A stretch of DNA of 23,949 nucleotides, taken from positions 1 through 23,949 of the IMG/VR virus record IMGVR_UViG_3300020183_000460; one strand, 5' to 3'. A model generated the notes under the pieces. The model was not told the DNA's origin. It saw nothing but the letters and a program-made list of their open reading frames with translations, and did not search any database. The position numbers and the translations under genes were made by a program. Shown here one piece after another: positions 4,619 through 21,283 of the stretch. Source of the stretch: a virus. The stretch's first letter is position 1. The number at the start of each line of letters is the position of its first letter.

Positions 4619-5368
4619 ATGGATCCTGTACCAATTAAAAAACTATCTCTGGATGATATGTATGCGACTTGGGCTAAAACCCAGGATAGCAGCCAGATGC
4701 AGGCGATGTTGGATCAGCTGAATCCCGATATCGATAAGGCTGTTTACGCCTACTCAGGATTGAATGCAGGGCCGGCCGTAAAAACCAGAGCCAAGCTGCT
4801 GGCAGCCAAAGCCATAAAAAAATATACCCCCAACTCCGGCTCTTCGTTGCGCAGTTGGATCTATACTCAGCTGCAGCCTCTAAACAGATACTCCCGGGAG
4901 CTAACCCCTTCCCCAGTTCCAGAGCGAGCGTATCAGCAGATAAGCGCTCTCAAGAAATTTGAAGCGGATTTTTATGAGAACAAGGGTAGGGTTCCCAGCG
5001 ATGGAGAGCTATCTGACTTGACTGGTATGTCTATACGGCAGCTGAATAAAGTCCGCGGTATGGACAAAAGAGTCTTCAGCGAAAGCTCCACCGCCTTTAC
5101 TGGCGAGAATCCAGTGACCTCCCAGGAAATTACAGTAGCTAAGAATCCGGGATTTCAGAAAGACGTCCTGGACACCATGTACAGTTCCTTTACGCCGCAG
5201 GAACAGGTCATCATGGAGCATAAGCTGGGCTACAATGGTAAGAAGATAATGAGCAATAACGACATTGCCAAGAGGCTAAGAATCAGCCCAGGCAGAGTCA
5301 GCCAGCTCACTACAACAATCGCCGCACGACTGGATGAATACGCCCAGCTCAGCAGGAGGGGCCAGTGA
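4619..5368 (+). CDS. sigma-70-family RNA polymerase sigma factor, 249 aa
   Basis: Sigma factors direct RNA polymerase to promoters, and phage versions usually switch on late genes. Residues ~50-95 resemble region 2, ending in GSSLRSWIYTQLQPLNRYSR, with the basic/aromatic pattern of the helix that melts DNA. Residues ~100-148 match region 3 (KGRVPSDGELSDLTGMSIRQ). Residues ~181-243 match region 4: FTPQEQVIMEHKLGY, then the helix-turn-helix NNDIAKRLRISPGRVSQL. The length suits a small group 3/4 or FliA-like factor. The acidic region 1 of housekeeping factors is absent. No clear Shine-Dalgarno precedes the ATG at 4619, so translation may be weak compared with the structural neighbours. The gene lies inside the baseplate operon, which is unusual. 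Sigma ancestry is fairly sure. Whether it acts on host RNA polymerase or is a repurposed structural protein cannot be told. Confidence 0.8.
   Translation: MDPVPIKKLSLDDMYATWAKTQDSSQMQAMLDQLNPDIDKAVYAYSGLNAGPAVKTRAKLLAAKAIKKYTPNSGSSLRSWIYTQLQPLNRYSRELTPSPVPERAYQQISALKKFEADFYENKGRVPSDGELSDLTGMSIRQLNKVRGMDKRVFSESSTAFTGENPVTSQEITVAKNPGFQKDVLDTMYSSFTPQEQVIMEHKLGYNGKKIMSNNDIAKRLRISPGRVSQLTTTIAARLDEYAQLSRRGQ
5353..5360 (+). promoter_or_regulatory. strong Shine-Dalgarno before a GTG start
   Basis: CAGGAGGG lies 4-9 bases before the GTG at 5365, inside the end of the sigma gene. It is the strongest ribosome site in this part of the window and justifies the GTG start, whose TG also forms part of the upstream TGA stop. 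Confidence 0.7.
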
Positions 5369-5778
5369 ATTCAGTAACTCAAAAAGTATTTGACGCTCTG
5401 AAAGAGGCAACCAAGAATTCAGCCAATGGCGGTGGGGTGCTTGGGTCTGGCGCATTTAGACTTCTATGGGAGCCCAAGGAGTTTAATAACAACTTTGAAG
5501 AGCTGGCAACTCGCTTCAATAGAAACGAACTTGCACAGCAGTTTATATCGACGGTTAGCCAAAAGTTTAAAGCATTTGATGCTATGAAGCAGCAAGTGCA
5601 GCATGACTTAATAGCAGCTGCGCACAGAGATATGGCGTTTCGCTACTCAGGCCGAATTCACAGAATACTAGATGAGGCGGGTCGTCGTAAAAACATTCAG
5701 ACGGATAAGTCTGGGCTATTAGCCAACATGCAGGACAACGTAGAGAAGTTCTTAGCTGTTGAGGAGGCGCAAAGCTAA
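5365..5778 (+). CDS. unidentified small helical protein, 137 aa
   Basis: I do not recognise this protein. It begins at a GTG overlapping the sigma-factor stop by four bases, with a strong ribosome site. It is predicted mostly helical, with a Gly-rich turn near residues 22-28 (GGGVLGSGAF) and a charged middle (HRDMAFRYSGRIHRILDEAG). There is no membrane segment or signal peptide. Because it is coupled to both the sigma gene upstream and the gp25-like gene downstream (TAATG), it may be a baseplate assembly protein or a partner of the sigma factor. Neither is shown by sequence. Confidence 0.45.
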   Translation: MNSVTQKVFDALKEATKNSANGGGVLGSGAFRLLWEPKEFNNNFEELATRFNRNELAQQFISTVSQKFKAFDAMKQQVQHDLIAAAHRDMAFRYSGRIHRILDEAGRRKNIQTDKSGLLANMQDNVEKFLAVEEAQS

Positions 5779-6233
5779 TGGCCGTCAGCCAGTCATATCT
5801 TGGCAAGATCTCTGATATATGCGTACTGGAGACTCCCGCTTATGGCGGCCTGGGCCCAGTCAACGTTACGATATCTAACTCAGGATCTGTTATTGCAGGC
5901 CCGTATAAGGTTGCACAAAAGTTCTTTAAGTTCCTGATGACAGAGCAGGGGTCTGTGCCCAGTGAGCCTACGTACGGGACAAGATTTGTATCTAACTTAT
6001 TTAGCGGACAGATACACACTGCCTTAGCTTTGTCGTTTGCATTCTATGCGGAAAAAGACGACATCTTAAACTATATTAAAAGTTCTGTACTTGAGCCTAC
6101 ACCGGATGAGGCTCTGCTTGACGTCCAGCTGGAAGGCCTTACGGTTACCTTGGATTCGGCGGTTATGTCTTTCCGGTTCTCGTTTAAGGACTCTTCAGTA
6201 ATCCTGGTACCTGTAACCATTTCAACGGTGTAA
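5778..6233 (+). CDS. gp25-like baseplate wedge protein, 151 aa
   Basis: The gp25/GpW-type wedge protein is the conserved core of contractile-tail baseplates and nucleates sheath attachment. The diagnostic stretch is at residues ~45-72: VAQKFFKFLMTEQGSVPSEP followed by TYGTRF. It matches the family pattern in which a helix is followed by 'L.T..G...P.YG.R'. The length of 151 residues is typical of the family. It is followed one base later by a baseplate J-like protein, the standard gp25-J order. The ribosome site GAGGAGG lies at 5761-5767. The C-terminal half is beta-rich and less conserved. Confidence 0.8.
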   Translation: MAVSQSYLGKISDICVLETPAYGGLGPVNVTISNSGSVIAGPYKVAQKFFKFLMTEQGSVPSEPTYGTRFVSNLFSGQIHTALALSFAFYAEKDDILNYIKSSVLEPTPDEALLDVQLEGLTVTLDSAVMSFRFSFKDSSVILVPVTISTV

Positions 6234-6234
6234 T

Positions 6235-8001
6235 ATGGAAACCCCTCTAGCTAATCATTCCCCTGATGCTGTCTTCTCAAAAGAGGAGCAGATCATCGCA
6301 TTTGTAAAGGCAGCCTACCCCACCATTGACCTCTCTGCAGGCACAGTGCTTCGGGACTTGGTTGTAAAACTATATGCCCATCTTGAAACGCGAATACAAG
6401 AGCAGATTGATTTGGCTCTTATCTCTAGCAGTCTGCTTGAAATTAGCAGAAGTCCTAATGATGTAGACGATACTCAAGTAGAACGAGTATTGTCCAACTT
6501 CAATGTAAGTCGTGCAGAAGGATCTACAGCTAACGGAATAGTAAGACTTTTCTTTTCGTCGGCTAACTCAACTGTAATTACGCCGGATATGCGTTTTACT
6601 TTGGGCGGTTTACTATTCCGCCCAGCAGGATCCTACGTTCTTGTTTCTGAGGCTAATTACACCGGAGCCTCCAATCAACGCATCTTAGAAGCGTCCGGAT
6701 CTTTGTTCACAGCAACTATTGATTTAATTGCTATAGATTCAGGTTCTTCTGGGAATATTCGAGCAACAACAACAGTTACAGGCGTCACTCCAACTATTTC
6801 CACGCTGGTGTCTGCAAAGGCTGATTCTGATTTTACAGGTGGAGCAGACGCTGACGACAACGTTGCTCTACTTGCCAAAGCCAAAGCTGGCGTTATGGGC
6901 AAAGTATTCGGAGGCAGAGATCACATCAAAGCTAAAATTAAAGCTGAATTCTCTGGAGTCAAAGATGTAGGCGTAGTGGGCTTCCTAGACCCAGAGATGA
7001 CCCGGGACCTGGTAGATGGCGTTCACATTGGTGGCAGGGTGGATTTATTTGTAAAGACTGCAGCTTACCCCTCCCGTATACAGGAGAGGGTTGCGGCTCA
7101 AATGATTTCTTACGACGTAGCCAATCAAGAGGCTTTGTTTGAAATCGTGCTGCCGACCTCTAAAGCCGCCGGCATGTATTCCGTGGAAAGTATCAAGTCC
7201 AATCTTACTCAACAGGCAGGACTTGAACTTGTATCCGATATCAGAACCCTGGACGGCAATACTCGACACCTAGTTCCAAACATAGAGTCTGCTGCCTTTA
7301 CGGCCTATCAAAAAGCAACTATTAGATTCTTGGTTCCATATCCGCAGATCAAGGAAGCGGCAACCGCTCAAGCCTTAGTCATTATAGAAACAGGTTCAGA
7401 GTTAAATCAAAATTCTTGGCTGCCTTTTGAGTATGTAGAGACGTCTACTAGTGCCCCCTATCCCACAGCTCCTTATGGGCCTGCTAGTATCTTTTTAAAT
7501 CAAAATGAAGGAGTGGTGGATTTCTTCTATTTCTACATTGAGTACCTCAAGATGCCAAACATCGTTGAGATACAAAACTACGTAGACTCTGCTGCAGAAC
7601 GAAGTTTGAGCGCTGACATGCTGGTACACGCCCCTATCCCGGGAATGTGCAGTCTTGAAATGCGCTTAATTAAACCAGCAGGAGCGCAAGATCCAGACAT
7701 CAATGCTCTCAAGGCAGCTTTAGTCTCTAAGTTCAATTCTTTTGAAATGAGTAAATCCATTCCTGCCAGCGCTCTTATACACACAGCCTATCAGAACATA
7801 CCAGAAGGTTACGTGATAGATCTGCCCGTACACCTCTATGGTGTAGTCATAGGTCCCAAGCTGGAAAAGGACATCATCTACTCTTCAGATGCCCTTAAAC
7901 CCCCTAAGATGCCTCTGCGCGGCTTAACGCAAAATACCTTGGCATTCTTCCTTGAGTCTGCTCTTATTGACATCTCCATCGTGGAGTGCTCTACCTCATG
8001 A
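6235..8001 (+). CDS. baseplate J/gp6-like wedge protein, 588 aa
   Basis: J/gp6 proteins form the ring of the baseplate wedges. Family hallmarks are visible in order. They are an N-terminal helical part with AGTVLRDLVVKLYAHLETRI (residues ~35-54), a beta domain with SGSSGNIRATTTVTGV (~169-184), then DFTGGADADDNVALLAKAKA (~199-218) followed by the Gly-Gly at ~226-227. That 'TGGAD' and 'GG' spacing is typical of the family. At 588 residues it is larger than P2/Mu J proteins (about 300 residues) and closer to T4 gp6, so a more elaborate baseplate is likely. Its ATGA junction with the next gene shows tight coupling. Confidence 0.82.
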   Translation: METPLANHSPDAVFSKEEQIIAFVKAAYPTIDLSAGTVLRDLVVKLYAHLETRIQEQIDLALISSSLLEISRSPNDVDDTQVERVLSNFNVSRAEGSTANGIVRLFFSSANSTVITPDMRFTLGGLLFRPAGSYVLVSEANYTGASNQRILEASGSLFTATIDLIAIDSGSSGNIRATTTVTGVTPTISTLVSAKADSDFTGGADADDNVALLAKAKAGVMGKVFGGRDHIKAKIKAEFSGVKDVGVVGFLDPEMTRDLVDGVHIGGRVDLFVKTAAYPSRIQERVAAQMISYDVANQEALFEIVLPTSKAAGMYSVESIKSNLTQQAGLELVSDIRTLDGNTRHLVPNIESAAFTAYQKATIRFLVPYPQIKEAATAQALVIIETGSELNQNSWLPFEYVETSTSAPYPTAPYGPASIFLNQNEGVVDFFYFYIEYLKMPNIVEIQNYVDSAAERSLSADMLVHAPIPGMCSLEMRLIKPAGAQDPDINALKAALVSKFNSFEMSKSIPASALIHTAYQNIPEGYVIDLPVHLYGVVIGPKLEKDIIYSSDALKPPKMPLRGLTQNTLAFFLESALIDISIVECSTS

Positions 8002-9170
8002 CAAAGCTGTACGCCAAACGGCTTTTAAACTTACTGGGCTCGTTCTGGAGCCGGCTATTTGGCAATGGTGCTCTACTGCGTCAGCTTGTCAGGGGACAGC
8101 TTGTAACACATGAGCAGTCGGAGCAAAACGTCAGTGATCTGGTTAAGTCTGTAGGCAATCAGGAAATTCCCGCAGGACGCACTACTAGTTGGACTAAATT
8201 TGTTTTTAGCTATTACAATCAAACAAAAATTGAGCATGGGGATCCTAATAAGAAGTATGGACCTTATCCAATAATTTACAGTTACGGTCAACTAAATACC
8301 GACGTTATAACTTACGACCTGCCAGAAGAGTTACTGTCTATCCCATTTTTATATGACAATATAGCGCAGCCTACAAAAGTGCTTACCGAAAATATAGATT
8401 ATAAAATTGAAGACAATAAACTCTATTTTAGAACTCCCCTTAGACTAGATGGAAAAGAAACTGTTTTCTACGCTAGAAATGTTGTAAAAGAAGCAGGATT
8501 TACTACTAGTAGACTAGGTTACGCTTTAGGCGTAGCTCTATCGGACGAGGTGTATTCTGTTGTCCCATTTAAGCATCTTTGGAGACTAGGATCATACGGT
8601 CCCAACTACTTAGATATGCTGACTATGTTAGGCTCTTGCGCTAACTCCCCAGTCACACAAAATGACGAGCAGGTTGAGTTAGTTTACGCAGATGGGCCCA
8701 CTACAGTTGTGGTTACTGATAAGGCAGGATACGCTGCCCCTACAGCTAAAATAAACGCACTTAAAGTAGGGCAAGCCATTCCACAAGGCACATCTTTAAC
8801 CAGCAGCCTACAGATCATCCACGATAAAGATGTTTATGTAACGGAAGCTATACCGGCCCCTTACAGAGATCGTAAGACCTTTAAGTACGGTAAAGAGCTA
8901 GCAATCGCTAGTTCTATGGTTATTATCAAGGCAGATATTCAGGGTCCTGCAGCTGCTGCACTTAAAGTTTTTAGGCAAACACTACCTGTTGACGTAAAAG
9001 TCTTAATATTTACCAACATTAATATAGCGGAGCCTATACTTGCAGGCACCGCTTTTGGCTTTGACTGCAAAGCCTCATATAGCATCATTACTCCAGCTCT
9101 TGCTATAAACGAAAGCCAGGTTTCTGTTAAAGCCACTTCCCGGGTAAAATACTCCACCTACGGATATTAA
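7998..9170 (+). CDS. unidentified probable baseplate protein, 390 aa
   Basis: The ATG at 7998 overlaps the J-like stop (ATGA), with GGAG at 7983-7986. An in-frame GTG at 7986 overlaps that ribosome site and is less likely to be the start. The protein has a helical N-terminus (LYAKRLLNLLGSFWSRLFGN), then a beta-rich body with many Tyr residues. It lacks an enzymatic motif. In P2-like operons the next gene after J is I, and in T4 the partner of gp6 is gp7. Position suggests this is the corresponding wedge or fibre-attachment protein, but sequence alone does not confirm it. Confidence 0.45.
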   Translation: MTKLYAKRLLNLLGSFWSRLFGNGALLRQLVRGQLVTHEQSEQNVSDLVKSVGNQEIPAGRTTSWTKFVFSYYNQTKIEHGDPNKKYGPYPIIYSYGQLNTDVITYDLPEELLSIPFLYDNIAQPTKVLTENIDYKIEDNKLYFRTPLRLDGKETVFYARNVVKEAGFTTSRLGYALGVALSDEVYSVVPFKHLWRLGSYGPNYLDMLTMLGSCANSPVTQNDEQVELVYADGPTTVVVTDKAGYAAPTAKINALKVGQAIPQGTSLTSSLQIIHDKDVYVTEAIPAPYRDRKTFKYGKELAIASSMVIIKADIQGPAAAALKVFRQTLPVDVKVLIFTNINIAEPILAGTAFGFDCKASYSIITPALAINESQVSVKATSRVKYSTYGY

Positions 9171-9680: not shown

Positions 9681-11882
9681 ATGAGCTCCATTCAACCCTG
9701 GCAAAGCGTAATTGAGACGATTAAAAACGGTGAGCCCATCACCGCTGAGGTGGCCAATCGCGCTATTGCTCAGCTGTCTTATCGCACCCAGCACCTCAAG
9801 GATCGCCAGGATGCACAAAGTCTGGCAGCTGCGATCTTCATATCCGGCGCTCCATTTACAGACGACGTAAAGACCGGACATGCGGTTTACTTCAATCCGG
9901 TATCTGCAAAATTTGCTCCAGCTTATGCTGACATGGAGTACAAGGATGGCTATCTGCAAGCCTCAGAAGCTTCTACGGTTGCCGGTATCGTCGTATACAA
10001 GGATACCGCTAACTCCGGCGTCATCGTAGTAGAAGGCTTGGTTAATCCTTCTCTCTACACAGCTATCGACTGCACCGGCGAATCTATCGTCTCTAATCTT
10101 CTTTTAAATCCTGCAGATCGTGGAGTGTTGTATCTGGCCTCAGGGTCTGCAACTGCCGGCTCTCTGACACCTAAGCCCGGCTTACTAAATATCCCTATTT
10201 GCACTCTGCTTGACGATACGCACCTTTTGGTTCGTCCGCCAATCACTTCGCCTTTGGATACTCAGGCTCTTCGCTTTCAATTGACTGCAAGGCCTGCCAC
10301 GCCAGAGCTTATTCTACAGCGCGTCTTTGGTGGAGCAGTAGAAAACTTCCCGGTTCCTGGCGCCGCTTCTGCCCTAACAGTAGGCACTACAGTTCAGCTG
10401 TACAGCCACTCTTATGCAACTCCTGACACTGTAGGAGACATCTACCTTACTGGCGAGGTGCACTCGCTCACCTCAAATGAGTTGCGCCTAGTAGACGTTG
10501 TACTGACTAAGTATGGAATTCAGCAACTTAATGCAAACAGTGCAGACTACGATTTAGTATTTAAAGCTGCTGCGGGCATAGGCCTTGCCGTAAAAGTACC
10601 CAATACCGGCACGGGGTATAGAATTAGCTACGGCGCAAACAGCTCAACAGCAGCTACCATTACATCCTACATCTCTCCGATTGACGCTACTTCGCCTAAC
10701 GTAGGATATTTAATTAAGGGTCAATACGTAGACTCAACTCTACCGGGTTGGATGCCAGCTACATCTCAGTACTTCCCAGACTCTATCATTCCTCCAACCG
10801 CAAAGTATGGCTATAACTTTGCGGCAGATAAAGTTCTACATCAACTATTTCCAGAAACAGTAGTTGGTGCGTATGTCGTATCTAAGAACGGCATAGCCCT
10901 ACCAGACACAACTGTCAAAGCCGGCAGTAACGGCATTTGGTGGGCCGATTCGTTCCTGACAGTACCGTGGAATAAGGTTGGCACTAAGCATGTGTTGCCA
11001 GACACCAACATAAAGTTTGGCGATTGGTCTCTAAACGACGCTAGTCAAATCGTACCTCCTGTTGATCTCACCTTGGTGTACACAAAGCTGGTAAGCGGTG
11101 GCATCAAGGTTGTAACTAGCTTAGAGACACCTGCAGATTCGCCAATTACAATTACAGATCCAGACGGCAGACCTGCAACAAACGGCCCACTGATTATCAA
11201 GGCAGGCTTTACAGTCACCGATGCTTCTAATACAGAGCCTGGATCTCTGGTCGTCAAGGACATTACCAACTTCACGATGAAGCGTGGCCGTGTGGTGGAG
11301 AAGCTCATCGCAGGTACAAACATAAGTCTCAACTCCACATTTGCCGGAGGTCAAGGCGAAGTGACAGTTGGGGTGGTGGGTCTTGACGGTAAGCTGGAAG
11401 GGCAGCCGGATATCTTGACAATTGATGATGTCCTTATTGAGAAGGACTCGGCAACAAATGTCTTCTATTCTTCAATGCCGCCCGCTAAAAACTCGTCAAT
11501 TCTTGGCAAGGTAGATATTCCTGCTTATCTAGACGGTAACTACAAGTTAAATCTTGTTATTACATTCTTGGCGCTGCATGCTTCTGGCGCCTCAGCTATG
11601 CCTAACTTAGAGCTTAGCTGGGTAAACATGAAGCCACCACCGACTGCGCAAAAGTACAATCTAACAAACTCTACTCATGTTACGAGTGGCGCAATTTCTG
11701 GGGGATTGCCAATCCTAACTGGAACGGCAATACCTAAAGACTACTTTATTAAAACCGTAGAGCTGGACACCGCATACGCAGGAGGCGAGATCTTCTTCCG
11801 GCTTGCTCGATCGTCATCGGACGCCTACACCGGTAAGGTAGGAATTCTTTCTCTGCGGTATAGATTTATAAAGTTTACTTAA
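9681..11882 (+). CDS. large fibre-like / baseplate appendage protein, 733 aa
   Basis: The N-terminus (IKNGEPITAEVANRAIAQLS, then YRTQHLKDRQDA) matches a recurring fibre attachment helix in which 'nGepv.A...NR...L..Rt..Lk.r.d' anchors a fibre to the baseplate. The body is a long series of beta segments with few cysteines. Around residues 540-565 there is LIAGTNISLNSTFAGGQGEV, a fibre-type turn-strand motif also seen in the next five proteins. The C-terminal ~130 residues form a separate beta domain. Probable role: a receptor-binding or baseplate-periphery fibre. No lyase, lysozyme or pectate-lyase-type active site is evident. Fibre-type architecture is fairly likely. The exact role is unknown. 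Confidence 0.5.
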   Translation: MSSIQPWQSVIETIKNGEPITAEVANRAIAQLSYRTQHLKDRQDAQSLAAAIFISGAPFTDDVKTGHAVYFNPVSAKFAPAYADMEYKDGYLQASEASTVAGIVVYKDTANSGVIVVEGLVNPSLYTAIDCTGESIVSNLLLNPADRGVLYLASGSATAGSLTPKPGLLNIPICTLLDDTHLLVRPPITSPLDTQALRFQLTARPATPELILQRVFGGAVENFPVPGAASALTVGTTVQLYSHSYATPDTVGDIYLTGEVHSLTSNELRLVDVVLTKYGIQQLNANSADYDLVFKAAAGIGLAVKVPNTGTGYRISYGANSSTAATITSYISPIDATSPNVGYLIKGQYVDSTLPGWMPATSQYFPDSIIPPTAKYGYNFAADKVLHQLFPETVVGAYVVSKNGIALPDTTVKAGSNGIWWADSFLTVPWNKVGTKHVLPDTNIKFGDWSLNDASQIVPPVDLTLVYTKLVSGGIKVVTSLETPADSPITITDPDGRPATNGPLIIKAGFTVTDASNTEPGSLVVKDITNFTMKRGRVVEKLIAGTNISLNSTFAGGQGEVTVGVVGLDGKLEGQPDILTIDDVLIEKDSATNVFYSSMPPAKNSSILGKVDIPAYLDGNYKLNLVITFLALHASGASAMPNLELSWVNMKPPPTAQKYNLTNSTHVTSGAISGGLPILTGTAIPKDYFIKTVELDTAYAGGEIFFRLARSSSDAYTGKVGILSLRYRFIKFT

Positions 11883-11935: not shown

Positions 11936-12898
11936 ATGTCTGCAATAATTGGAACTGAATGGCTAAACTCAAACTCACTAAGAAACTATCCTCTTAGTCA
12001 GCTAGCGACACAACAAGCCAACAACTCCTCGTTTGAAATGCCAAACGAGTTGTTTGTTGATATGAAGTTAGCGGTACCCTATATAGCTGGACTTAAACCT
12101 GCCGGCTTCTATATCAGCTCTATTACGGTCTACCCTCAAGGCTTTGTCTTTGAGTTGGGATACGACGGAGAGTTCCAGGCTCCGAGTATTGCCGTATCCT
12201 CTCCTGTGGCATTTGCGGGGTTTACGCAAAATACCTCAGTGACGATTAAGGGTATCTCCTCCAGCTCTATCTACGATTTTTCTCAAATCTCCGGCGTGGC
12301 GGTTATCGGAGACGTAACAAAACTACAAGGTGCCGTAGGCACTCTTACTTTTAATCTAGCGGGCTCTCGGCTAGAGTCAACGGTTGTCAGCTTTGGGCTT
12401 AAGAGAATTAGTGGAATTAGAGTTGTCAACTCCGGATTTACTACACCAGTTCTATCGGGCCAGATCTCGCTACAAAGCGGGTCGAATCACAGTATTGCAG
12501 TTACTTCCTCGCCTGAGTACAGCTCTTTACGGTTTAATGCTGTAGACGGAGGGGGCCTGGCAGAAACTTGCGACTGCAACGATATTGAACTGAGCCCCTG
12601 TATTCGAACAATAAACGGCATACAAGGTGATGCCCAGGGGAACATTGCTATTGTCGGCGGAGACTGTGTCTCTGTTGTAACAAGCAGCGACGGTATCAGC
12701 ATATCGGATACTTGCGCAAAGCCTTGCTGTGGTTGTAACGAGTTGCAGGTTGTCGTAACTGATACTGAAAACCTGAATGATCGACTTACAGAGCTTGCTT
12801 TGCAAATCACGCAATTAGCCTCATCTGTAGCCAATCTACAGAACGTATGTCTTAGCTCTTCTACTGACCCAACTAGCTGCGCGCAGGATCCAGGTTGA
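11936..12898 (+). CDS. appendage protein of the tandem family, member 1, 320 aa
   Basis: This is the shortest clear statement of the family architecture. Residues 8-19 (EWLNSNSLRNYP) form the N-terminal signature, part of a ~70-residue domain shared with the genes at 14804, 16351 and 17186. Residues 100-205 are beta-rich. Residues 212-260 contain CDCNDIELSPCIRTINGIQG then GNIAIVGGDCVSVVTS, a fibre-type 'ING...GNI.I' motif. CAKPCCGC follows at 260-267, and a heptad-like coiled coil occupies ~276-304 (LNDRLTELALQITQLASSVA), ending in a Cys-containing tail. The layout suggests a baseplate-anchored short fibre that trimerises through its C-terminus, with cysteines binding metal or forming disulfides. 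Function is inferred from module order. I know of no exact match. Confidence 0.5.
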   Translation: MSAIIGTEWLNSNSLRNYPLSQLATQQANNSSFEMPNELFVDMKLAVPYIAGLKPAGFYISSITVYPQGFVFELGYDGEFQAPSIAVSSPVAFAGFTQNTSVTIKGISSSSIYDFSQISGVAVIGDVTKLQGAVGTLTFNLAGSRLESTVVSFGLKRISGIRVVNSGFTTPVLSGQISLQSGSNHSIAVTSSPEYSSLRFNAVDGGGLAETCDCNDIELSPCIRTINGIQGDAQGNIAIVGGDCVSVVTSSDGISISDTCAKPCCGCNELQVVVTDTENLNDRLTELALQITQLASSVANLQNVCLSSSTDPTSCAQDPG

Positions 12899-12899
12899 T

Positions 12900-14795
12900 A
12901 TGGCACTACGTAAATACGCTGCAGGCTTTCTTGAGGAGTGCGAGTCTAATGGCTTGCCGTTTTTAACAACGGCAGCTAATGGCAATCCTCCTATTATTGC
13001 TTTTAAAGTATTTGGTTCATTCAGCCCCAGCATGGCTTATCTGGAGCACGTAACTATTACGTCAACTTTAGGGGCAGGGCCTAGACTAAAGTGCAATGTA
13101 ATAACTGGATCTGGTCCTTTATTTACAAGACAAAACTTTGAGACCGCCACCTCAACCACAGGTGGCTCGTATTCGTCTACGGCTAGATTCTACATAACCG
13201 AAGAGTCCGTAGGCGGATATACCCACGGTCTGTTAGCGGATACGCAAAAGGGCGTTTACATAACCTATGTAATTTTAGAGGACGTGGGATTCGACTCCTA
13301 TCCTATTAGCACATACTCTCTTGCTCCATTCTGCCTAGAGCCAGAGCTTGGAGCTGTAGCGGTAGATGTAAACAATAATCTCTTACCTACTAAGCCTATC
13401 TGGATTACCGAAGGCTACAACTACGCTTTAGACTACTCTGCAGAAGATCCTGCAAGTGTGTCTTTTGCTGTAAGTCCCGGCGCTGGAGCAGGACTAGTGC
13501 CCTGCAACGATGCCATAGAGCCTGACGATGTCATTAGACGTATTAACGGACAAGAGGCAAACGACAAGGGGGAGTACGGATTTCAGGCTGAGTCTGCGGA
13601 CTGCATAACGGTAGATAGCCGATATCTGCCAAACGGCCCAGAAATTGCCGTAAACGCACACTGCGCCCCTTGCTGTCGTTGTCAAGATTACAAAGACACC
13701 TCAGAGTACATCAAAGGTGTAGCGCTGCTGTACTACAAAGCAGTAAAGAAACTTAAAGCACTTATCGCAGAGTACAACAGCGTATCCCAGCAGTTTAAGA
13801 ATAGAGCAGCCTGTTGCCCTACCTTCGGTTCGTTTACGCCGCGGTTCAGAATGTGGCCTCAGCAGAATTTTAAGCTTCAGATCCAGGCTATGGCGGAAAA
13901 CAACACCGGACACACCATCCGAGCGTTAAGCATGAAACTAAAGCATGCTGTTACGTCGGCAAACGACATGTCCGCTACTGATGAAAACGGCAACGTATAC
14001 ACCGTTCAAAGGGATCAACCTCTCGCCGTCATTCCGATTTCAGAAGCTTCGTATCTATACTATAAAAATTTAAACCCAACATCAAAGGGATTACAGTTTA
14101 GCATAGAGTCACAAGGTGTAGTTGAAACCAATGTAAATCTAGTAACGTTGCAGGGATTGTCTTCTTGCCAGCCAGAGCAGCCTACGGATATTCCTTCTTG
14201 TACTGGTTATCTGATGATGACTTCAGGCGTAGTCATCGTAGACCCTATCTTTAGAAAAATTGTTAATCTTAATGGAAGTCCTGGCTCCGTAAACATCAAC
14301 CTTACTTTTACTTACTACGGCAGTTCTCCAAGTCCAGCAGAATCTCCCTGCGGCGCAGCACAAAATAGAATCATTGCTGAAAACGTAATTAAACAAGTAG
14401 CGATGCCCCCAAATAAGAAGTCAGTAAATCCCTGCCCTCCGGCAACCGGATCTTATGTGACTGTAGGATCAGATAGAAGCCTGGCTATCAAGTTCTCAGA
14501 TGCAGTTCACGGGGTAGGGTCTCTCACGTTAATTTATAGAACTTTTGCAGACAATACTTGGACTACCGCCTCAAGCACCTCTATTGACCTGGATCTTACT
14601 GGTCAGTTTGAGGCGCCGCTGGGCAGTATTCCTGCCCAATACACTGGTGCAGTGCAGGTTGTAGTAAAGTACACCCCTCCTGCGGCAGGAGAACCGGGAG
14701 CATTTGTAACTAAGTGCAAGGCTGTTGATGCGTCGGACGACGAAGTCGATATTCCAGCAGAAGGTTTTGAGACTGCAGCAACCTTGCTGCTATAA
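12900..14795 (+). CDS. appendage protein of the tandem family, member 2 (divergent N-terminus), 631 aa
   Basis: It shares the Cys/ING module with the previous protein but has a different N-terminus. Residues 202-222 contain PCNDAIEPDD, then VIRRINGQEANDKGEYGF, and residues ~233-261 contain DCITV and CAPCCRC. The order is the same as in the 320-aa protein (CND, ING, DC, CCxC). A helical segment (~265-302, YYKAVKKLKALIAEYNSVSQ) follows, then a second Cys pair (ACCP, ~304-307) and about 320 residues of beta-rich sequence. The N-terminal NxxRxYP signature is missing. Probably an appendage protein with an extended distal part. It is coupled to its neighbours with 1-8 base gaps. Confidence 0.48.
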   Translation: MALRKYAAGFLEECESNGLPFLTTAANGNPPIIAFKVFGSFSPSMAYLEHVTITSTLGAGPRLKCNVITGSGPLFTRQNFETATSTTGGSYSSTARFYITEESVGGYTHGLLADTQKGVYITYVILEDVGFDSYPISTYSLAPFCLEPELGAVAVDVNNNLLPTKPIWITEGYNYALDYSAEDPASVSFAVSPGAGAGLVPCNDAIEPDDVIRRINGQEANDKGEYGFQAESADCITVDSRYLPNGPEIAVNAHCAPCCRCQDYKDTSEYIKGVALLYYKAVKKLKALIAEYNSVSQQFKNRAACCPTFGSFTPRFRMWPQQNFKLQIQAMAENNTGHTIRALSMKLKHAVTSANDMSATDENGNVYTVQRDQPLAVIPISEASYLYYKNLNPTSKGLQFSIESQGVVETNVNLVTLQGLSSCQPEQPTDIPSCTGYLMMTSGVVIVDPIFRKIVNLNGSPGSVNINLTFTYYGSSPSPAESPCGAAQNRIIAENVIKQVAMPPNKKSVNPCPPATGSYVTVGSDRSLAIKFSDAVHGVGSLTLIYRTFADNTWTTASSTSIDLDLTGQFEAPLGSIPAQYTGAVQVVVKYTPPAAGEPGAFVTKCKAVDASDDEVDIPAEGFETAATLLL

Positions 14796-14803
14796 GGAAT
14801 GCC

Positions 14804-16354
14804 ATGAAAGTAGTTAGCAGAGATTTTCTTAACGACAACGAGTACCGCTCATATCCGGTAGACGATAGAGCTACATTTGAGCCTTACTCTAATACAGATG
14901 TATCGGCTGTAAATTCTTTGCTATCTGATATTAAGTTAATTCTGCCGGGGTCTATTGCTGCATGTGCGTTTATTGCCAGCGTTAAAGTGACTAATGCACT
15001 CGTCACTTTAACAATTATGGGATCTCAGGCGCATCCATTCTCGCCAAATACTCCAGCGGCAACACTTACCAATGAGCAATACTCAGTATTAGGTGCATTT
15101 GTTTTAGCTACAGTGCAGGTACGCCGTAGTTCTAGCCTGCCAGGATCTGTAGTTGAGATTCAATCCGATGTGCCTGGTGTAGGCGGTTGGGTTGTATTTG
15201 GATCTGGAATTCTTAACCCGGGGTCTTGGTCTTTCTCCGGGCCTCAGGCTTCAATGATTTCAGATCAATGCGTAACTCGCTACGAATACGGCGGCGTTAC
15301 TAGCATCGGCCGTCTTAACTTTAATACGGCAGTAGACGGACAAGTTCAACTAGTAGGGCAAAACGGAATTGAAGTGGTGCCTGATGACAAGGGCCTTGCT
15401 ATTCAATTTAGCGGGACTAAAGGGGAGATACGGCAAAGCCTGCAATCCTATCTTGGACAATGCGGGGGCAGACCGGAATCAAATACCTGTGCATTTACGG
15501 CTATTAAAACCATTAATGGATTAGTGCCTCAAGGACAGGATAGAGAACTGGTAATCGTATTGGATAAACCCTTATACGCTACATATGAGGGATCCGGAGA
15601 TAAGGAAATTGTTGTCGTCTCCTCTGATCTAGAGTTGTCTGCCTTCTGCAAGGGTCGCATCGATATACCTGAAAGCTGCAACACTGCTCAAGGATTTACA
15701 GAATTTACAACCAGAGCCTACACGGTAACTCCCACAAGAGTAGCTTTAAGTCCCAATACAAAACTTACATTTGAAATTATTGTAAATGGCTTAGTGCAGT
15801 CTTACAGATTTACCTACACGCAACAGCATCCTACTCGCGAAGCTATAGCAGTATTTACCAGCAACACCCCCATAGTCGCATTTGGTGAGACGTTGTTGTA
15901 CCTACATGTGGATGAGGTTTTGTCTGAGTGGCAGCTCTACGACAATGCAGGTCCAAGCCTTGTAGGGTTTGGTCCGATTGCTACTAACCTTCGTAGCGAA
16001 TCAGATATTGTCTATCAGGGCTCGCAATACCACATGACCTTAGGGCCAACGACAATTTATGATCAACTGGGAATCACTCAACTCATTGTTGGTATTCAGG
16101 CTCCAGATAGTTTTGAAGAAGCCGGAACTTATATACGTAAAAGCTACGGTAGATATGAGCATATATCTAACCCTGGTTATTACGTTGAAATTCAGGGAGC
16201 CCCTAATGACGTATGGGCAGTTAACAACAATGGGCTATTGCTAGCAGCAGGTACTTTAGACAACGACGGTAGAGGCGTGCAAACTCAAACTTACGTTAGA
16301 TCAAACGGCGAATCTGCTATTAGATCTATAGTCATACTAGGAGTTACTTCGTGA
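14804..16354 (+). CDS. appendage protein of the tandem family, member 3, 516 aa
   Basis: The N-terminus has the family signature DFLNDNEYRSYPVDD (residues 7-21), followed by SDIKLILPGS (41-50), which aligns with VDMKLAVPYI of the 320-aa protein. The beta/turn motif occurs at ~180-203 (DGQVQLVGQNGIEVVPDDKG), and a second ING motif at 238-240 is flanked by cysteines (GQCGG, NTCAF). The C-terminal ~250 residues are beta-rich and not recognised. A good ribosome site (AAGGA) lies just before the ATG, and the end overlaps the next gene as GTGA. Probably an adhesion or decoration fibre attached through its N-terminal domain. Confidence 0.48.
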   Translation: MKVVSRDFLNDNEYRSYPVDDRATFEPYSNTDVSAVNSLLSDIKLILPGSIAACAFIASVKVTNALVTLTIMGSQAHPFSPNTPAATLTNEQYSVLGAFVLATVQVRRSSSLPGSVVEIQSDVPGVGGWVVFGSGILNPGSWSFSGPQASMISDQCVTRYEYGGVTSIGRLNFNTAVDGQVQLVGQNGIEVVPDDKGLAIQFSGTKGEIRQSLQSYLGQCGGRPESNTCAFTAIKTINGLVPQGQDRELVIVLDKPLYATYEGSGDKEIVVVSSDLELSAFCKGRIDIPESCNTAQGFTEFTTRAYTVTPTRVALSPNTKLTFEIIVNGLVQSYRFTYTQQHPTREAIAVFTSNTPIVAFGETLLYLHVDEVLSEWQLYDNAGPSLVGFGPIATNLRSESDIVYQGSQYHMTLGPTTIYDQLGITQLIVGIQAPDSFEEAGTYIRKSYGRYEHISNPGYYVEIQGAPNDVWAVNNNGLLLAAGTLDNDGRGVQTQTYVRSNGESAIRSIVILGVTS

Positions 16355-17184
16355 ACCCTATCCCCCATTTAGAGTGGCGTAATCTTAACTCTAATAGAAA
16401 CTATCCGTTTATGGATAGCAGCAGCCTTATTTTTGATGGTGGATTTATCCCGCAGAGCTGGATAGTAGATGCTCGCATTTACGCACGGGGAAACTACTCT
16501 GAGGGACAACCTTGCTACATCAGCAAGATGGTAAGAACAAATACACTGGTTGCCCTTGAGGTATCTGCAAGCTCTGGATTTGTTTTGGGCGAGGCTGTAA
16601 TTAAGTTCGGAGAAACAAAAGACATAATTTCTATCTTCGACGGCAGTGTCCTAGCCGGATGTCTAGTGATAGACCCCGCCAGAAGCTCACTGCTGCAATC
16701 TGTAGACGAAGGCGAATACTCTTTGACGGCAGACTCTGCTACGTTTCTACCTGCTGTCTGTGAATACCTGCCTGAGACGCAAGTTCAATCTATTAATAGT
16801 AAATCTGCAAATGTGATGCTTACAGGTAATGAGGGAATTAAAGTAGAAAGCCTTAATGGTACTACTATTAAAATTAGTATCTTAGGCGACCCCCACTTTA
16901 CTAGATACGAGTGCGTAGTAAATGCCGACTCTGCTCCAGCGGAAGTATTAGATCTAAACGGAGTGTTTCTTAAAAATCTAACAATCGTACACTACGTTAA
17001 ATCTGCAGCGGGAGCATTGCTGGGACCTTTTGTAAGCAAGCTAAAACAAAAGCCGGACGGCTCTGTTGTACTGGCTCTCAAGACAAAAGAGTTTGAAGCG
17101 GGTAGCTCTGAGCCAGACATGCGTCCGGCCTTTAGAATAACCACCGAAGGTAATTCTCTTATATTTAGTATGGCAGGCGGATGA
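16351..17184 (+). CDS. appendage protein of the tandem family, member 4, 277 aa
   Basis: A GTG start overlaps the previous stop (GTGA), supported by TAGGAG upstream. Residues 8-22 (EWRNLNSNRNYPFMD) give the clearest copy of the N-terminal signature. IVDARIYARG (38-47) and a Tyr-Ile strand align with the other members. The beta/turn motif is at ~147-178 (SINSKSANVMLTGNEGIKVE, then TIKISILG). The remaining 100 residues are a small beta domain. Only a few cysteines are present, and the CCxC element of members 1 and 2 is absent. Probably a short appendage with its own distal domain. Confidence 0.48.
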   Translation: MNPIPHLEWRNLNSNRNYPFMDSSSLIFDGGFIPQSWIVDARIYARGNYSEGQPCYISKMVRTNTLVALEVSASSGFVLGEAVIKFGETKDIISIFDGSVLAGCLVIDPARSSLLQSVDEGEYSLTADSATFLPAVCEYLPETQVQSINSKSANVMLTGNEGIKVESLNGTTIKISILGDPHFTRYECVVNADSAPAEVLDLNGVFLKNLTIVHYVKSAAGALLGPFVSKLKQKPDGSVVLALKTKEFEAGSSEPDMRPAFRITTEGNSLIFSMAGG

Positions 17185-17185
17185 C

Positions 17186-18103
17186 ATGTATACTGCATTT
17201 AATCAAATAGCCTATCCGTTAGTCGACTTCAGCTCTGGCTCTACTGAGCAAGTTCAGGCTCTGCGTTCTGTTTTAGTAGACTTTAAGATATATGTAGCAG
17301 GAGACAGTTTTTCTGCTGTGCCTAAAGTCACATTGGTGTCGCTACATAAAGCAACAACGCAACCGTTAAAGCTATTCCTAGAACTTAAGGTAGATAGCAT
17401 CTTGCTAGGCTCTACGATTCTTACTGTGGCTAACGACTCTTATGCTACACAAGAGTTCGTACGGTATTACTTTGACTCAGAGGACTGGCCTGTAGTATCG
17501 GGATACAAAGTCGAAGGGTATATTTGTTTAAGCAACGCTCAGACTCTTTTTCAAACTTTTGCAGCAGAGCAACCTGTTGCTATAAATGTTGCCTTTGAGC
17601 CAAGCACAGTAGTGGTTTTAAGTAACCATAGAGTGCATCAAATTACCTGTAGGTCTGCCAAGCCGCTCTTACAGCAAACGCCTAGCTCCAGATACGGCGA
17701 AGAATCTTTTCCCGTTATGGGGGACGTTAAGTTAGTAGCAGGAAATAACTGCACTATATCTGTACTTCCCGCTACAAAGACAATCATTGTTGGGGCACAG
17801 CAAGGAGCTAACGACTCTGGCGATGAGCTGTGCGGAGTCTGGGCTGGGAAAGTAATTGAAAAAGACATTCTCTGTGATGAGGCAATTTACAGCATTTCTG
17901 GCGTAGACCCTGATAGCAATGGAAACGTTGACATTAAAGCCGAAACCCCGCTAGCTGTAAGTTCTTTTACAGAGACAGAGCTGGAACAAGTAGCTCCTGC
18001 GTTTATACCTGTTGTAAGTCAGTTTCCAGATATAATACGCTTTATCTACGTAGGTCTACCTCAGTCGGCCGGTAATGCTAGCGTGTTTAATTGTGACACT
18101 TAA
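17186..18103 (+). CDS. appendage protein of the tandem family, member 5, 305 aa
   Basis: It begins one base after the preceding stop. The signature is eroded but recognisable: FNQIAYPLVDF at residues 5-15, then SVLVDFKIYVAGD (28-40), which align with the NYP and VDMKL regions of the other members. The beta/turn motif is at ~179-203 (GDVKLVAGNNCTISVLPATK). A second fibre motif is at 236-250 (SISGVDPDSNGNVDI), which fits the common 'vnGv.Pd..GNv.i' fibre pattern. Cysteines are spread through the second half. Likely a further short appendage or adhesion protein of the same assembly. Confidence 0.48.
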   Translation: MYTAFNQIAYPLVDFSSGSTEQVQALRSVLVDFKIYVAGDSFSAVPKVTLVSLHKATTQPLKLFLELKVDSILLGSTILTVANDSYATQEFVRYYFDSEDWPVVSGYKVEGYICLSNAQTLFQTFAAEQPVAINVAFEPSTVVVLSNHRVHQITCRSAKPLLQQTPSSRYGEESFPVMGDVKLVAGNNCTISVLPATKTIIVGAQQGANDSGDELCGVWAGKVIEKDILCDEAIYSISGVDPDSNGNVDIKAETPLAVSSFTETELEQVAPAFIPVVSQFPDIIRFIYVGLPQSAGNASVFNCDT

Positions 18104-18111
18104 GGAGCGCC

Positions 18112-19281
18112 ATGAGTCTAGATCGATGTATTCCTATCCCGCCCGTAACTGGTCCAGGTTGCATTCCACCTACGGGGACCGCAAACTGCAATACTACGCA
18201 GATACCTACAGGTATATGTCCGCCGCCTATTGATCCAGGTCCTGAAGATCCTAAATGCGTTAATGATAACGCACGACGGCCGTGGCCAACACCGCCCCCT
18301 GCTGAAATTGGGTGTAACCCTGTAAGCCTGCAAATAACAAACGAGCCTACTGAAGAGGACGATCCGGACCAAACAATTAGACTTGAAGGCTCGGTTACCT
18401 ATATCTCTGGAGATGCGTGTTTACCTCAAGTAAATCTTAATCTTGTGGTGCCCCCTAGCATTGCTTCTGGTGGGGGCTCTCCGAGTTTAAGCGGATTTGG
18501 ATATACACAATACGGCGGTTGTGTTCGAGTAGGCCCTGTTCAAGACGCAAAGTACGCTACTCCCCAAGACTTTTTTAGCAACGAGCCAGGCGCTGCCGCT
18601 TTTGTAACTAAGACTATACCGCAGATGAACCAGCTTGGAAATTGCGACGAGTTGTGCCAAGCTCGATCTAAGTTTGGCTCTCAAGTTGCAAAATTTAATT
18701 TAATAGGTCCAATACTTGCAGAGATAACGGGATTTTATCCCGCGAAATTCTCTGGCGTCGATGGCGACATTTTTGCCACCGGATGGCAATATAGCTGGAC
18801 AAGATCTGTATGTGTCATCGCCTCAAATATGTGCCAGCCTTTATGTAATATATCGTCTTGGTCTGATTACGACGTAGGCATTGAATACAGCGAGGCTTGG
18901 AATATCAAAGAAAACGTATACGGTTATACCTTTGGCGGCTTTCCTGGATTCCTAACTCCAGGCATAAATCTTCAAAATCAAGTACGAGCGGGATTTAAAC
19001 CTGTACCTATCATGCTTGGTACTCAAGTACTTATTTATGGATTTGTGCCCTGGGGTGTAACCCCTCCGACAACAAACCCTAACACCGGGGAAACTGTACC
19101 TGGAAGCCCCGAAGCCTGCGAATGCCCTATAGTCTGGTTCTTTAGTGAGCAAGTCGCATTTGATGGAGAGTGCAAAGAAGAAGATACCGGTACTGCCGGA
19201 CTAACCTCTATGCTGCCGCAGAGAAACATAACTTCAGCAGGAATGTTCTTCGGATCGCCGGAAAATGCCAATCGAGTTTAA
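18112..19281 (+). CDS. Pro/Cys-rich structural protein, 389 aa
   Basis: I do not recognise this protein. The first ~70 residues are Pro- and Cys-rich and probably unstructured (for example RCIPIPPVTGPGCIPPTGTA). The rest is beta-rich with Trp and Tyr, such as FATGWQYSWTRSVCVIASNM. There are 16 cysteines in 389 residues, several paired as CxxxC or CxC. A ribosome site (AAGGAG) lies just before the ATG. It follows the appendage family and precedes a fibre-domain protein, so a distal fibre or virion-surface protein is the best guess. The last 17 bases overlap the next gene in another frame. Confidence 0.4.
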   Translation: MSLDRCIPIPPVTGPGCIPPTGTANCNTTQIPTGICPPPIDPGPEDPKCVNDNARRPWPTPPPAEIGCNPVSLQITNEPTEEDDPDQTIRLEGSVTYISGDACLPQVNLNLVVPPSIASGGGSPSLSGFGYTQYGGCVRVGPVQDAKYATPQDFFSNEPGAAAFVTKTIPQMNQLGNCDELCQARSKFGSQVAKFNLIGPILAEITGFYPAKFSGVDGDIFATGWQYSWTRSVCVIASNMCQPLCNISSWSDYDVGIEYSEAWNIKENVYGYTFGGFPGFLTPGINLQNQVRAGFKPVPIMLGTQVLIYGFVPWGVTPPTTNPNTGETVPGSPEACECPIVWFFSEQVAFDGECKEEDTGTAGLTSMLPQRNITSAGMFFGSPENANRV

Positions 19282-19543
19282 CACAGTAATCCACAGGTAC
19301 TCTATTCAGTCTGGCGTAACACCTACGGCAGCTGAGTTATACCCTGGCGAACTGGCTTTAAACTTAGCTGATAACAAACTATTTACTTTAAATTTTGCAG
19401 GCACCGTAATTGATTTGACGGCAATTAACTCTCAGTTTACTCTAACCGGATCCCTTAATGGAGACTTATTAGTATATAACTCCACAACAGGCAGATACGA
19501 AGCCACTAGGGCAAAAGATGTATTAGACGGAGGATCGTACTAA
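19265..19543 (+). CDS. stand-alone fibre N-terminal-type domain, 92 aa
   Basis: Residues ~10-51 (HRYSIQSGVTPTAAELYPGE, then LALNLADNKLFTLNFAGTV) match a very common phage fibre attachment module in which 'PTa..L..GELAlN.aDgklyt....G.vv.l' forms a small beta domain. It is normally followed by a long fibre shaft, but here the protein ends after 92 residues. The gene lies wholly inside or next to neighbouring genes, overlapping the upstream one by 17 bases and the downstream one by one base (TAATG). Possible roles are an adaptor that plugs a fibre socket, or a remnant of a longer fibre. The domain match is fairly secure. Confidence 0.6.
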   Translation: MPIEFNTVIHRYSIQSGVTPTAAELYPGELALNLADNKLFTLNFAGTVIDLTAINSQFTLTGSLNGDLLVYNSTTGRYEATRAKDVLDGGSY

Positions 19544-19952: not shown

Positions 19953-20237
19953 ATGAAAAAGTTTGCAATGACGTATGCCACGGTTCACGGCCTACTCAAC
20001 AACGCAGAGGTGCGAGCAATCAGCCCTGCCATTAAAGCCGCCTACGACTCCATAGAGGCAAGCACTGCAGGCCAGGGGTGTTCTGCCTGCGCTAAGAAGA
20101 AGAAGGCTAACGAAGCTATTACTCAGCTAATCTCGCAACTCCAAGGTGCATCAGACTTAGAGTTAGATAGAATTAAAAAAGCATTAGGGGTAGAGACATT
20201 GGTGTTCTCGCACGGCCTTAGTTTTACAGAGAGATAA
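19953..20237 (+). CDS. small CxxC-containing helical protein, 94 aa
   Basis: I do not recognise this protein. Helices flank a short metal-binding-like segment, GQGCSACAKKKKANEA (residues ~41-56), with one CxxC followed by four lysines. Only two cysteines exist, so a complete four-Cys zinc site would need a partner or dimer. A TAATG junction couples it to the extremely Cys-rich protein that follows, suggesting the two may work together. That is inference. Confidence 0.4.
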   Translation: MKKFAMTYATVHGLLNNAEVRAISPAIKAAYDSIEASTAGQGCSACAKKKKANEAITQLISQLQGASDLELDRIKKALGVETLVFSHGLSFTER

Positions 20238-21283
20238 TGGGCAGCTATAACCCGGCAATTCCGTGCTGCTGTAATGAAGAAGACTCGGCAAGTCTCAAAC
20301 TATGCTGCTTGAGTGTTACTCTGCAAAGAGAATGCCGAACAGCAATTATAGATGAGGGGGAATGTACGTCATTGCCGGGACCTCCCCAAATCATAGAGTA
20401 CACTAAAAATTATAGAGCTGGAGCCGTGTCCGAGGAAGAGTGTACCTGTGCGCTATGGCAACCTGGAGCGTTTGAAACCATAAATCAAGACGGCACTGAA
20501 TTTGGTATTGAAGATCGGCTTATTAGCTGCGAGGCCACATTTTACCCAGAGATACCGTGTTCATCAGGTGGCTTTGGCGGCAATCAATGTGTCCTTACAC
20601 CGGAAGACGAAGACGCTCAAAAAGCGTGTAGCGGCGGAGACACCATATGCACTAATTGGGTGTGTGCACCCTGTGGGCCTGTAAGGGATGGCTGTACATT
20701 AAACGGCCCCTGCACCGGCATTCCGTATTGTGAGCCTAAACCTTGCTGCGAGCCGCCTCCAGTGCGATTGTGTTGTTGTAGGGTTATAGAAGATGGGTGT
20801 ATTACTAGTGTATCCTGCACAGTCTGCGAAGAAGAAACTAGCGAAGGTAGCGGTGATACTTGGAACATATGCTCGTTTATTGGTAACTGCGAACAGTGCG
20901 ATTTAGATCAAAATGTTCTTATAGTTAGTCCTTGCGATAGGAGTTGCGCGCCGCCGCACTTGGACACCGATCCGGCCGTAACTTGCTGCAGAGACTGCGT
21001 AACCTACTATCAGGACCCGTCGACCGGCGAGATACTCGAAGCCTGCGCCATTGCTAAATGCATAACTCCTCCTCCGTGCAACCCCGTCCCCAACCTCCCG
21101 CTGTGCTCTTGCGATCCTCCGCGCGTTGAACCTAGCGACTGTCTTCAAATTACACCTAGATATGGAACTATTTATAATTCTGCTGAAAATAATCTTATGT
21201 CCGGGATGATATATGATCCCAAGACAAATACGTACAAGCAGAATCGTCTATTCTTATTTGGCTACGGCTACGATAAACTATGA
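20237..21283 (+). CDS. extremely cysteine-rich protein, 348 aa (41 Cys)
   Basis: I count 41 cysteines in 348 residues (about 12%), spread over residues 10-305 and grouped as CC, CCC and CxC (AIPCCCNEED, LKLCCLSV, VRLCCCRV, TVTCCRDCVT read approximately). Pro and Glu/Asp are also common. The last ~45 residues lack cysteine and end in an aromatic segment FLFGYGYDKL. No signal peptide or membrane segment is seen. Such density implies metal binding or extensive disulfides that could form only after lysis. The gene is coupled by TAATG upstream and ATGA downstream to a glycosyltransferase. It may be a rigid virion-surface or fibre-tip protein. Function unknown; the reading frame is secure. Confidence 0.5.
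   Translation: MGSYNPAIPCCCNEEDSASLKLCCLSVTLQRECRTAIIDEGECTSLPGPPQIIEYTKNYRAGAVSEEECTCALWQPGAFETINQDGTEFGIEDRLISCEATFYPEIPCSSGGFGGNQCVLTPEDEDAQKACSGGDTICTNWVCAPCGPVRDGCTLNGPCTGIPYCEPKPCCEPPPVRLCCCRVIEDGCITSVSCTVCEEETSEGSGDTWNICSFIGNCEQCDLDQNVLIVSPCDRSCAPPHLDTDPAVTCCRDCVTYYQDPSTGEILEACAIAKCITPPPCNPVPNLPLCSCDPPRVEPSDCLQITPRYGTIYNSAENNLMSGMIYDPKTNTYKQNRLFLFGYGYDKL

Follow-up and report, generated by a model that had tools for sequence, protein, structure and literature searches.

Five consecutive open reading frames (ORFs) at positions 11936-18103 of a virus sequence, IMG/VR record IMGVR_UViG_3300020183_000460 (23,949 bases, one long + strand operon; hereafter the window), share one homologous module of ~240 (200-250) residues, as judged by profile comparison, and descend from one ancestor by duplication. 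In every uncut locus examined, the array identified with these profiles has exactly five members in the same order. The five proteins are ancient paralogues that probably each took up a permanent and distinct position in a single virion structure, for which the contractile-tail baseplate periphery is the best candidate. The genes, all on the + strand and spaced by -4 to +8 bp, are as follows ('slot' denotes the gene position; aa, amino acids).

11936..12898, + strand: slot 1, 320 aa (p320); N-terminal beta domain at ~1-150, hairpins 1 and 2, Cys motif C..PCCGC, C-terminal helix at 268-309
12458..12541, + strand: slot 1 hairpin 1, residues 175-202, GQISLQSGSNHSIAV...RFNA, from the alignment; AlphaFold2 strands at 185-192 and 195-202 (low confidence there)
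12608..12736, + strand: slot 1 hairpin 2 and Cys motif, residues 225-267, INGIQGDAQGNIAIVGGDCVSVV...CAKPCCGC, from the alignment
12900..14795, + strand: slot 2, 631 aa (p631); diverged N-terminal domain, hairpins, C..PCCRC motif, long distal part
13542..13682, + strand: slot 2 hairpin 2 and Cys motif, residues 215-261, from the alignment
14804..16354, + strand: slot 3, 516 aa (p516); shared module at ~1-250 and distal part; 219-1228 aa in other genomes
15554..16351, + strand: slot 3 distal part, residues ~251-516
16351..17184, + strand: slot 4, 277 aa; shared module with a confident prediction for residues 10-145, short distal part
16804..16881, + strand: slot 4 hairpin 1, residues 152-177
17186..18103, + strand: slot 5, 305 aa; both hairpins present in the shared module, distal part nearly absent

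Within the window, blastp joins p320 with p516 (expect value (E) 4e-5 over 296 aa) and with p631 (E 6e-6). Relatives were taken from IMG/VR and one orthologue alignment was made per slot. Pairwise comparison of hidden Markov models, a check proposed in an initial annotation made from the DNA letters, joins 10/10 slot pairs by hhalign (probability 86-99.7, E 5e-6 to 2e-25, 88-270 columns), whereas 45 control comparisons of the slots with nine other protein families of the window stay at a probability of 3 or below. These controls rule out chance similarity; reversed decoys reach a best E of 0.065. A profile started from p320 alone collects the members of 17 loci, with a gap between E ~1e-31 and 0.1 for the next ORF. 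This gap is not independent evidence since the gathered members train the profile, a circularity that was met by applying slot profiles to loci outside the training set and by separate scans with slots 4 and 5.

The members follow a common plan: a motif of the type W.N.N..R.YPF, a beta domain of ~150 residues, hairpin 1 (G.V.L..G.N) and hairpin 2 (ING..PD..GNI.I.g) in most members. A Cys motif (C..PCCGC / C.PCC.C) is added in slots 1 and 2, and the C-terminus of slot 1 forms a helix of ~40 residues. Hairpin 1 reads GQISLQSGSNHSIAV, KPIWITEGYNYALDY, GQVQLVGQNGIEV, SANVMLTGNEGIKV and GDVKLVAGNNCTIS in genes 1-5, respectively. Hairpin 2 reads INGIQGDAQGNIAIVGGDCVSVV in gene 1, INGQEANDKGEYGFQAESADCITV in gene 2, INGLVPQG..ELVIVL in gene 3 and ISGVDPDSNGNVDIKAETPLAV in gene 5; gene 4 has it in other genomes, with no evident copy in the window. 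The initial annotation had recognised the N-terminal signature in four of the five genes and a similarity of ~75 residues. All five genes carry this N-terminal domain, as GFLEECESNGLPF in the N-terminal domain of the 631-aa protein aligns with FLTSNLQIAYPF of its orthologues, and the homology extends over ~200-250 residues. The shared motif of ~25 residues described there mixes two successive hairpins, the second hairpin of genes 1 and 2 having been set against the first hairpin of genes 3-5. A structural check was made for slots 1 and 4. Their AlphaFold2 models have a mean predicted local distance difference test (pLDDT) score of 66.6 and 71.8, respectively, residues 10-145 of slot 4 lying mostly at ~90. 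In both, the N-terminal domain is predicted to contain one helix and eight to nine strands in identical order.

The fixed number and order were examined with slot profiles built from at most 17 genomes and then applied to loci left out of the building. Of the latter, 31/37 read s1-s2-s3-s4-s5 (the set includes near copies, and L078 represents the same contig as L014, which had gone into the training set). Among the other 6/37, L085, L100 and L101 are cut and L089, L090 and L092 are very divergent with five copies; to these is added L088. In L089, L090 and L092, the most divergent loci, slots 3 and 4 are ambiguous by profile and were assigned by position. When near copies are removed, 42/43 intact-array contigs from the slot-1 scan have five members. 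L088, the 43rd, has a short slot 4 that fell below the first threshold and was later matched at E 3e-10, which gives five in 43/43. Because all these loci had been found through slot 1 (an orthologue of which occurs in every uncut locus), two further scans were started from slots 4 and 5. The same order is read in 58/62 and 43/46 loci, respectively, the remainder being truncated, either where the contig ends or by the limits of the fetched flank, as in L131, whose slot 1 lies ~5 kb upstream. By slot-1 identity, the 159 loci fall into 81 clusters at 95%, 54 at 70% and 26 at 50%. A mixed-slot profile finds four to six matches in each of 30 whole contigs (106-235 kb); among the matches listed, which lack the weak end, six corresponds to one gene hit in two pieces, and all of them lie in one cluster per contig.

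In a tree of 100 members from 20 genomes, copies cluster by position and not by genome. Slots 1, 3 and 4 each form one clade (Shimodaira-Hasegawa-like approximate likelihood ratio test, SH-aLRT, 95-96), while only the window group and the long L081 branch keep slots 2 and 5 from doing so. The slot labels require five changes on the tree, for a minimum of four and 61 in shuffles. Since the copies group by slot across diverged genomes, the duplications predate the divergence of this phage group. Together with blastp and hhalign, the tree thus bears out the repeated duplication proposed by the initial annotation.

The distal parts differ strongly between slots. The sequence past the matched core has a median length of 20 aa in slot 1 and 19 aa in slot 5. 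A distal part is always present in slot 2 (139-591 aa), and it ranges from 2 to 984 aa in slot 3 and from 6 to 702 aa in slot 4. An all-against-all comparison yields hundreds of matching pairs within slots, whereas matches between slots are nearly all due to the Cys motif of slots 1 and 2, one exception being L080 slot 3 with L080 slot 2. Outer parts are therefore inherited with their slot. Between near relatives, distal identity broadly follows that of the core. Binding-type modules have been added in single genomes: a beta-propeller in one slot 3, an FGE-sulfatase module in L065 slot 3, a ConA/LamG (lectin) module in L061 slot 2 and Ig repeats in L088 slot 2. A Pfam search with slot 2-5 members returned these lectin, FGE, Ig and propeller modules and no spike domain.

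Two peculiarities of slot 2 may be mentioned here. In L009 (10941-12059), and also in L008 and L011, it bears an N-terminal extension of ~373 aa in which a GDSGSP stretch recalls proteases of the chymotrypsin type, with no Pfam match. The slot 2 member of L100 (663-9008) is ~2,780 aa long, mostly without family matches.

The array lies in a tail operon. The nearest isolates, by terminase and baseplate genes, are Salmonella phage Arash and Vibrio phage D181. The main neighbours in the window are listed below.

In the + strand operon: tape-measure-like gene; also further structural genes besides those listed here
4619-5368: sigma-factor-like gene within the tail operon (phrog_351, E 2e-11)
5778..6233, + strand: W/gp25-like baseplate gene; weak match to phrog_43 (E 0.03), profile match to Arash and D181; kept upstream
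6235..8001, + strand: J/gp6-like baseplate wedge gene (phrog_6, E 1e-15); profile match to Arash and D181; kept upstream
7986..9170, + strand: 394-aa gene (p394) in the gpI position; profile match to Arash gp14 and D181; kept upstream
9681..11882, + strand: 733-aa protein (p733), conserved immediately upstream of slot 1 in 40/43 genomes; outside the paralogue family
19265..19543, + strand: short protein with a long-tail-fibre type N-terminus (phrog_1699, E 3e-10), one gene past the downstream neighbour of the array

The order W-J-p394-(p167)-p733-s1..s5 is conserved in ~40 genomes, with gaps of mostly a few bases. Among 43 genomes, p733 is found in 40 and J in 39, and the order upstream of slot 1 is kept in most. 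The J/gp6-like and, by a weak match, W/gp25-like wedge genes that share the operon with the array fit a contractile-tail baseplate operon (myovirus type), and the position beside W-, J- and gpI-position genes in ~40 genomes supports the appendage context given in the initial annotation and, with it, a baseplate context. Gaps inside the array are also mostly a few bases across genomes, except where HNH-type, TnpB-like, collagen-like or LamG-type genes are inserted. TnpB-like or HNH-type inserts stand between members of an otherwise undisturbed array at L014:8762-9811, L061:19949-20491 and L064:10946-11416 and 16011-16577. Between slots 1 and 2, L067 (11460-16092) has genes for a collagen-like repeat protein and for radical-SAM-like and glycosyltransferase-like proteins (named by eye), and L061 has a gene for a LamG-type protein.

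Several other features of the region deserve a comment. The sigma-factor-like gene occupies the same place in the tail operons of Arash and D181. The 19265-19543 product is a 92-aa protein with a fibre-type N-terminus and no distal part; L009 has a 144-aa version. Cysteine-rich proteins are encoded downstream of the array at 20237-21283 (41 Cys in 348 aa, 11.8%) and at 18112-19281 (16 Cys in 389 aa), while slots 1 and 2 contain 10 and 16 Cys. A possible parallel is the disulfide-linked tail of phage Milano (PMC10811340). The L102 contig was binned with a Methylococcales metagenome-assembled genome, a link too weak to name a host.

From this context and the profile data, we infer the virion location and the assembly of the five proteins. 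The baseplate periphery is the mount for host-attachment parts, and the five paralogues would occupy five different places there. The N-terminal beta domain may dock onto the baseplate or onto a neighbouring paralogue, and the hairpins and the slot 1 helix may serve oligomerisation; both roles are guesses, because the models have no significant fold match. Slots 2-4 would project parts that touch the host surface, whereas slots 1 and 5 would have a mostly structural role. Loss, gain or rearrangement of members is not seen in any uncut locus, so that the five probably act together as an obligatory hetero-assembly. That the full set has stayed in one order in contigs of 100-235 kb from many metagenomes, even though sequence identity has fallen to ~25-30%, argues that the members depend on each other and implies strictly divided tasks within a single structure. 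A more specific model, which we advance only tentatively, assumes that the five paralogues make one obligatory five-part arm per baseplate wedge, an architecture unseen in studied phages that would have arisen by ancient duplications of a beta-domain fold with no known relatives and then become frozen in both number and order.

Other explanations must be weighed against peripheral baseplate paralogues with fixed places. The five genes could encode five independent homotrimers, receptor-binding fibres or spikes that each recognise a target of their own and sit side by side on one anchor, with outer parts renewed for host range, as in Ackermannviridae. Such a set would account for the shared N-terminal module, for the variable distal length in slots 2-4, for the binding-type modules of single genomes, for the fibre-type genes nearby and for the collagen-like and LamG-type inserts of L067 and L061 between slots 1 and 2. 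However, an outer domain is all but lacking in slots 1 and 5, number and order are invariant in uncut loci, and outer parts show no exchange between slots. Receptor-binding sets of phages are usually short-lived and variable, including in number, which also counts against separate fibres. We therefore consider this model unlikely, and with it the multi-fibre array of the initial annotation: the set is old, fixed at five and fixed in order rather than flexible. Alternatively, the proteins might sit elsewhere in the virion (neck, tail tip hub, head decoration) or be assembly factors that merely lie within the baseplate operon. Indeed, placement at the baseplate rests on genomic position, and no fold match was obtained. 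Nevertheless, the position right after the wedge genes in ~40 genomes and the binding-type modules in slots 2 and 3 make this a somewhat poorer candidate than separate fibres. The initial annotation had proposed yet another history, repeated duplication followed by swapping of the outer domains, to which the differences in length and type between the distal parts of different slots would conform. Taken as a recent tandem duplication, it is highly improbable. Recent duplication was ruled out by the grouping of copies by slot across highly diverged genomes. Swapping between slots was rejected on the near absence of cross-slot distal homology, hundreds of distal matches within slots standing against almost only the Cys motif of slots 1 and 2; moreover, slots 1 and 5 have hardly any distal part to exchange.

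Some observations weigh against our preferred assignment to the baseplate periphery. Each binding-type module was recognised in a single genome only. The predicted slot 1 and slot 4 models have no significant fold match. No isolate was found to carry the family, and no member has been seen in any virion. The number five depends on spotting slots by their conserved patterns, so that very divergent arrays could differ. In favour of the assignment, Arash, which shares the W-J-p394 core, is a myovirus whose gp10 and gp12-gp14 were detected in particles along with many enzymes, as was its sigma-factor-like protein (PMC10585845); this support is soft because the 116 reported particle proteins include enzymes.

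Among the members tested, the shared module has no convincing family in Pfam, NCBIfam or PHROGs; one slot-1 member gives a weak E of 0.0055 to phrog_9992 (baseplate assembly protein). A tblastn search of isolated phages with p320, p516 and slot 1 of L014, L102 and L084 finds no carrier. In a fold search of the PDB, the slot 1 model obtains only weak C2-domain-like hits, and the slot 4 model has no Foldseek match in BFVD. Re-searching the models with VIA gives a best Z of 5, which is within the stated noise of the tool. For neither model do Foldseek and VIA give a significant match that would point to gp10-like XD domains. The T4 flower fold is likewise not matched in the fold searches, nor in the PDB sequence search, in which nothing is significant, the slot 1 helix showing no more than a coiled-coil resemblance. 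Within the Pfam, PHROGs, NCBIfam and structure libraries tested, the view that no described family has this pattern therefore holds. No description of a five-paralogue array was found in the literature searched (open-licence papers); the constant five genes in one order suggest a hitherto undescribed five-part attachment structure. Being absent from Pfam, NCBIfam and PHROGs, the family is worth annotating, and the five-gene array can serve as a marker for recognising this uncultured phage group.

How, then, does the array relate to known systems? Arash and D181 have sigma-factor-like, W-like, J-like and gpI-position (p394) genes in the same order as in the window, but no member of the five-gene family was found in either record. 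In Alcyoneusvirus (RaK2, phiK64-1), many neighbouring tail-fibre genes contribute to one adsorption apparatus, with ten proteins of which seven are depolymerases; the part of the source consulted describes no single paralogous set of five (PMC10253068).

The tailspike proteins TSP1-4 of Ackermannviridae (CBA120, S117) are closer in design. They are encoded by adjacent genes, have conserved N-terminal assembly domains and differing C-termini, as in the array, and form one branched complex (PMC8825819, PMC11414711, PMC8432352). Those sets, however, have up to four members, with the gp10-like XD domains only in TSP2 and TSP4; some genera are without a member, and receptor modules recombine. Here, the module is present in all five, slots 1 and 5 are without an outer domain, and the variable member number of the Ackermannviridae type was not encountered, five being present in every uncut locus. 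Nor do the members exchange outer modules, given the near absence of distal homology between slots apart from the Cys motif of slots 1 and 2.

The other parallel is offered by gp10, gp11 and gp12 of T4, proteins of the baseplate periphery thought to derive from one primordial fold (PMC3004832). Like the array, they are a small set of diverged paralogues beside wedge genes, and the T4 proteins attach to the wedge. They differ in having three members instead of five. What they share is a C-terminal flower motif that only structures reveal, while the array proteins have their N-terminal half in common, and sequence profiles detect it. The evolution of a complex baseplate by duplication, readable in T4 only from structures, can thus be tested by sequence in this phage group. 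By analogy, the array appears to resemble in kind T4 gp10/gp11/gp12 or the tailspike sets of Ackermannviridae, although it has more members and their number is fixed.

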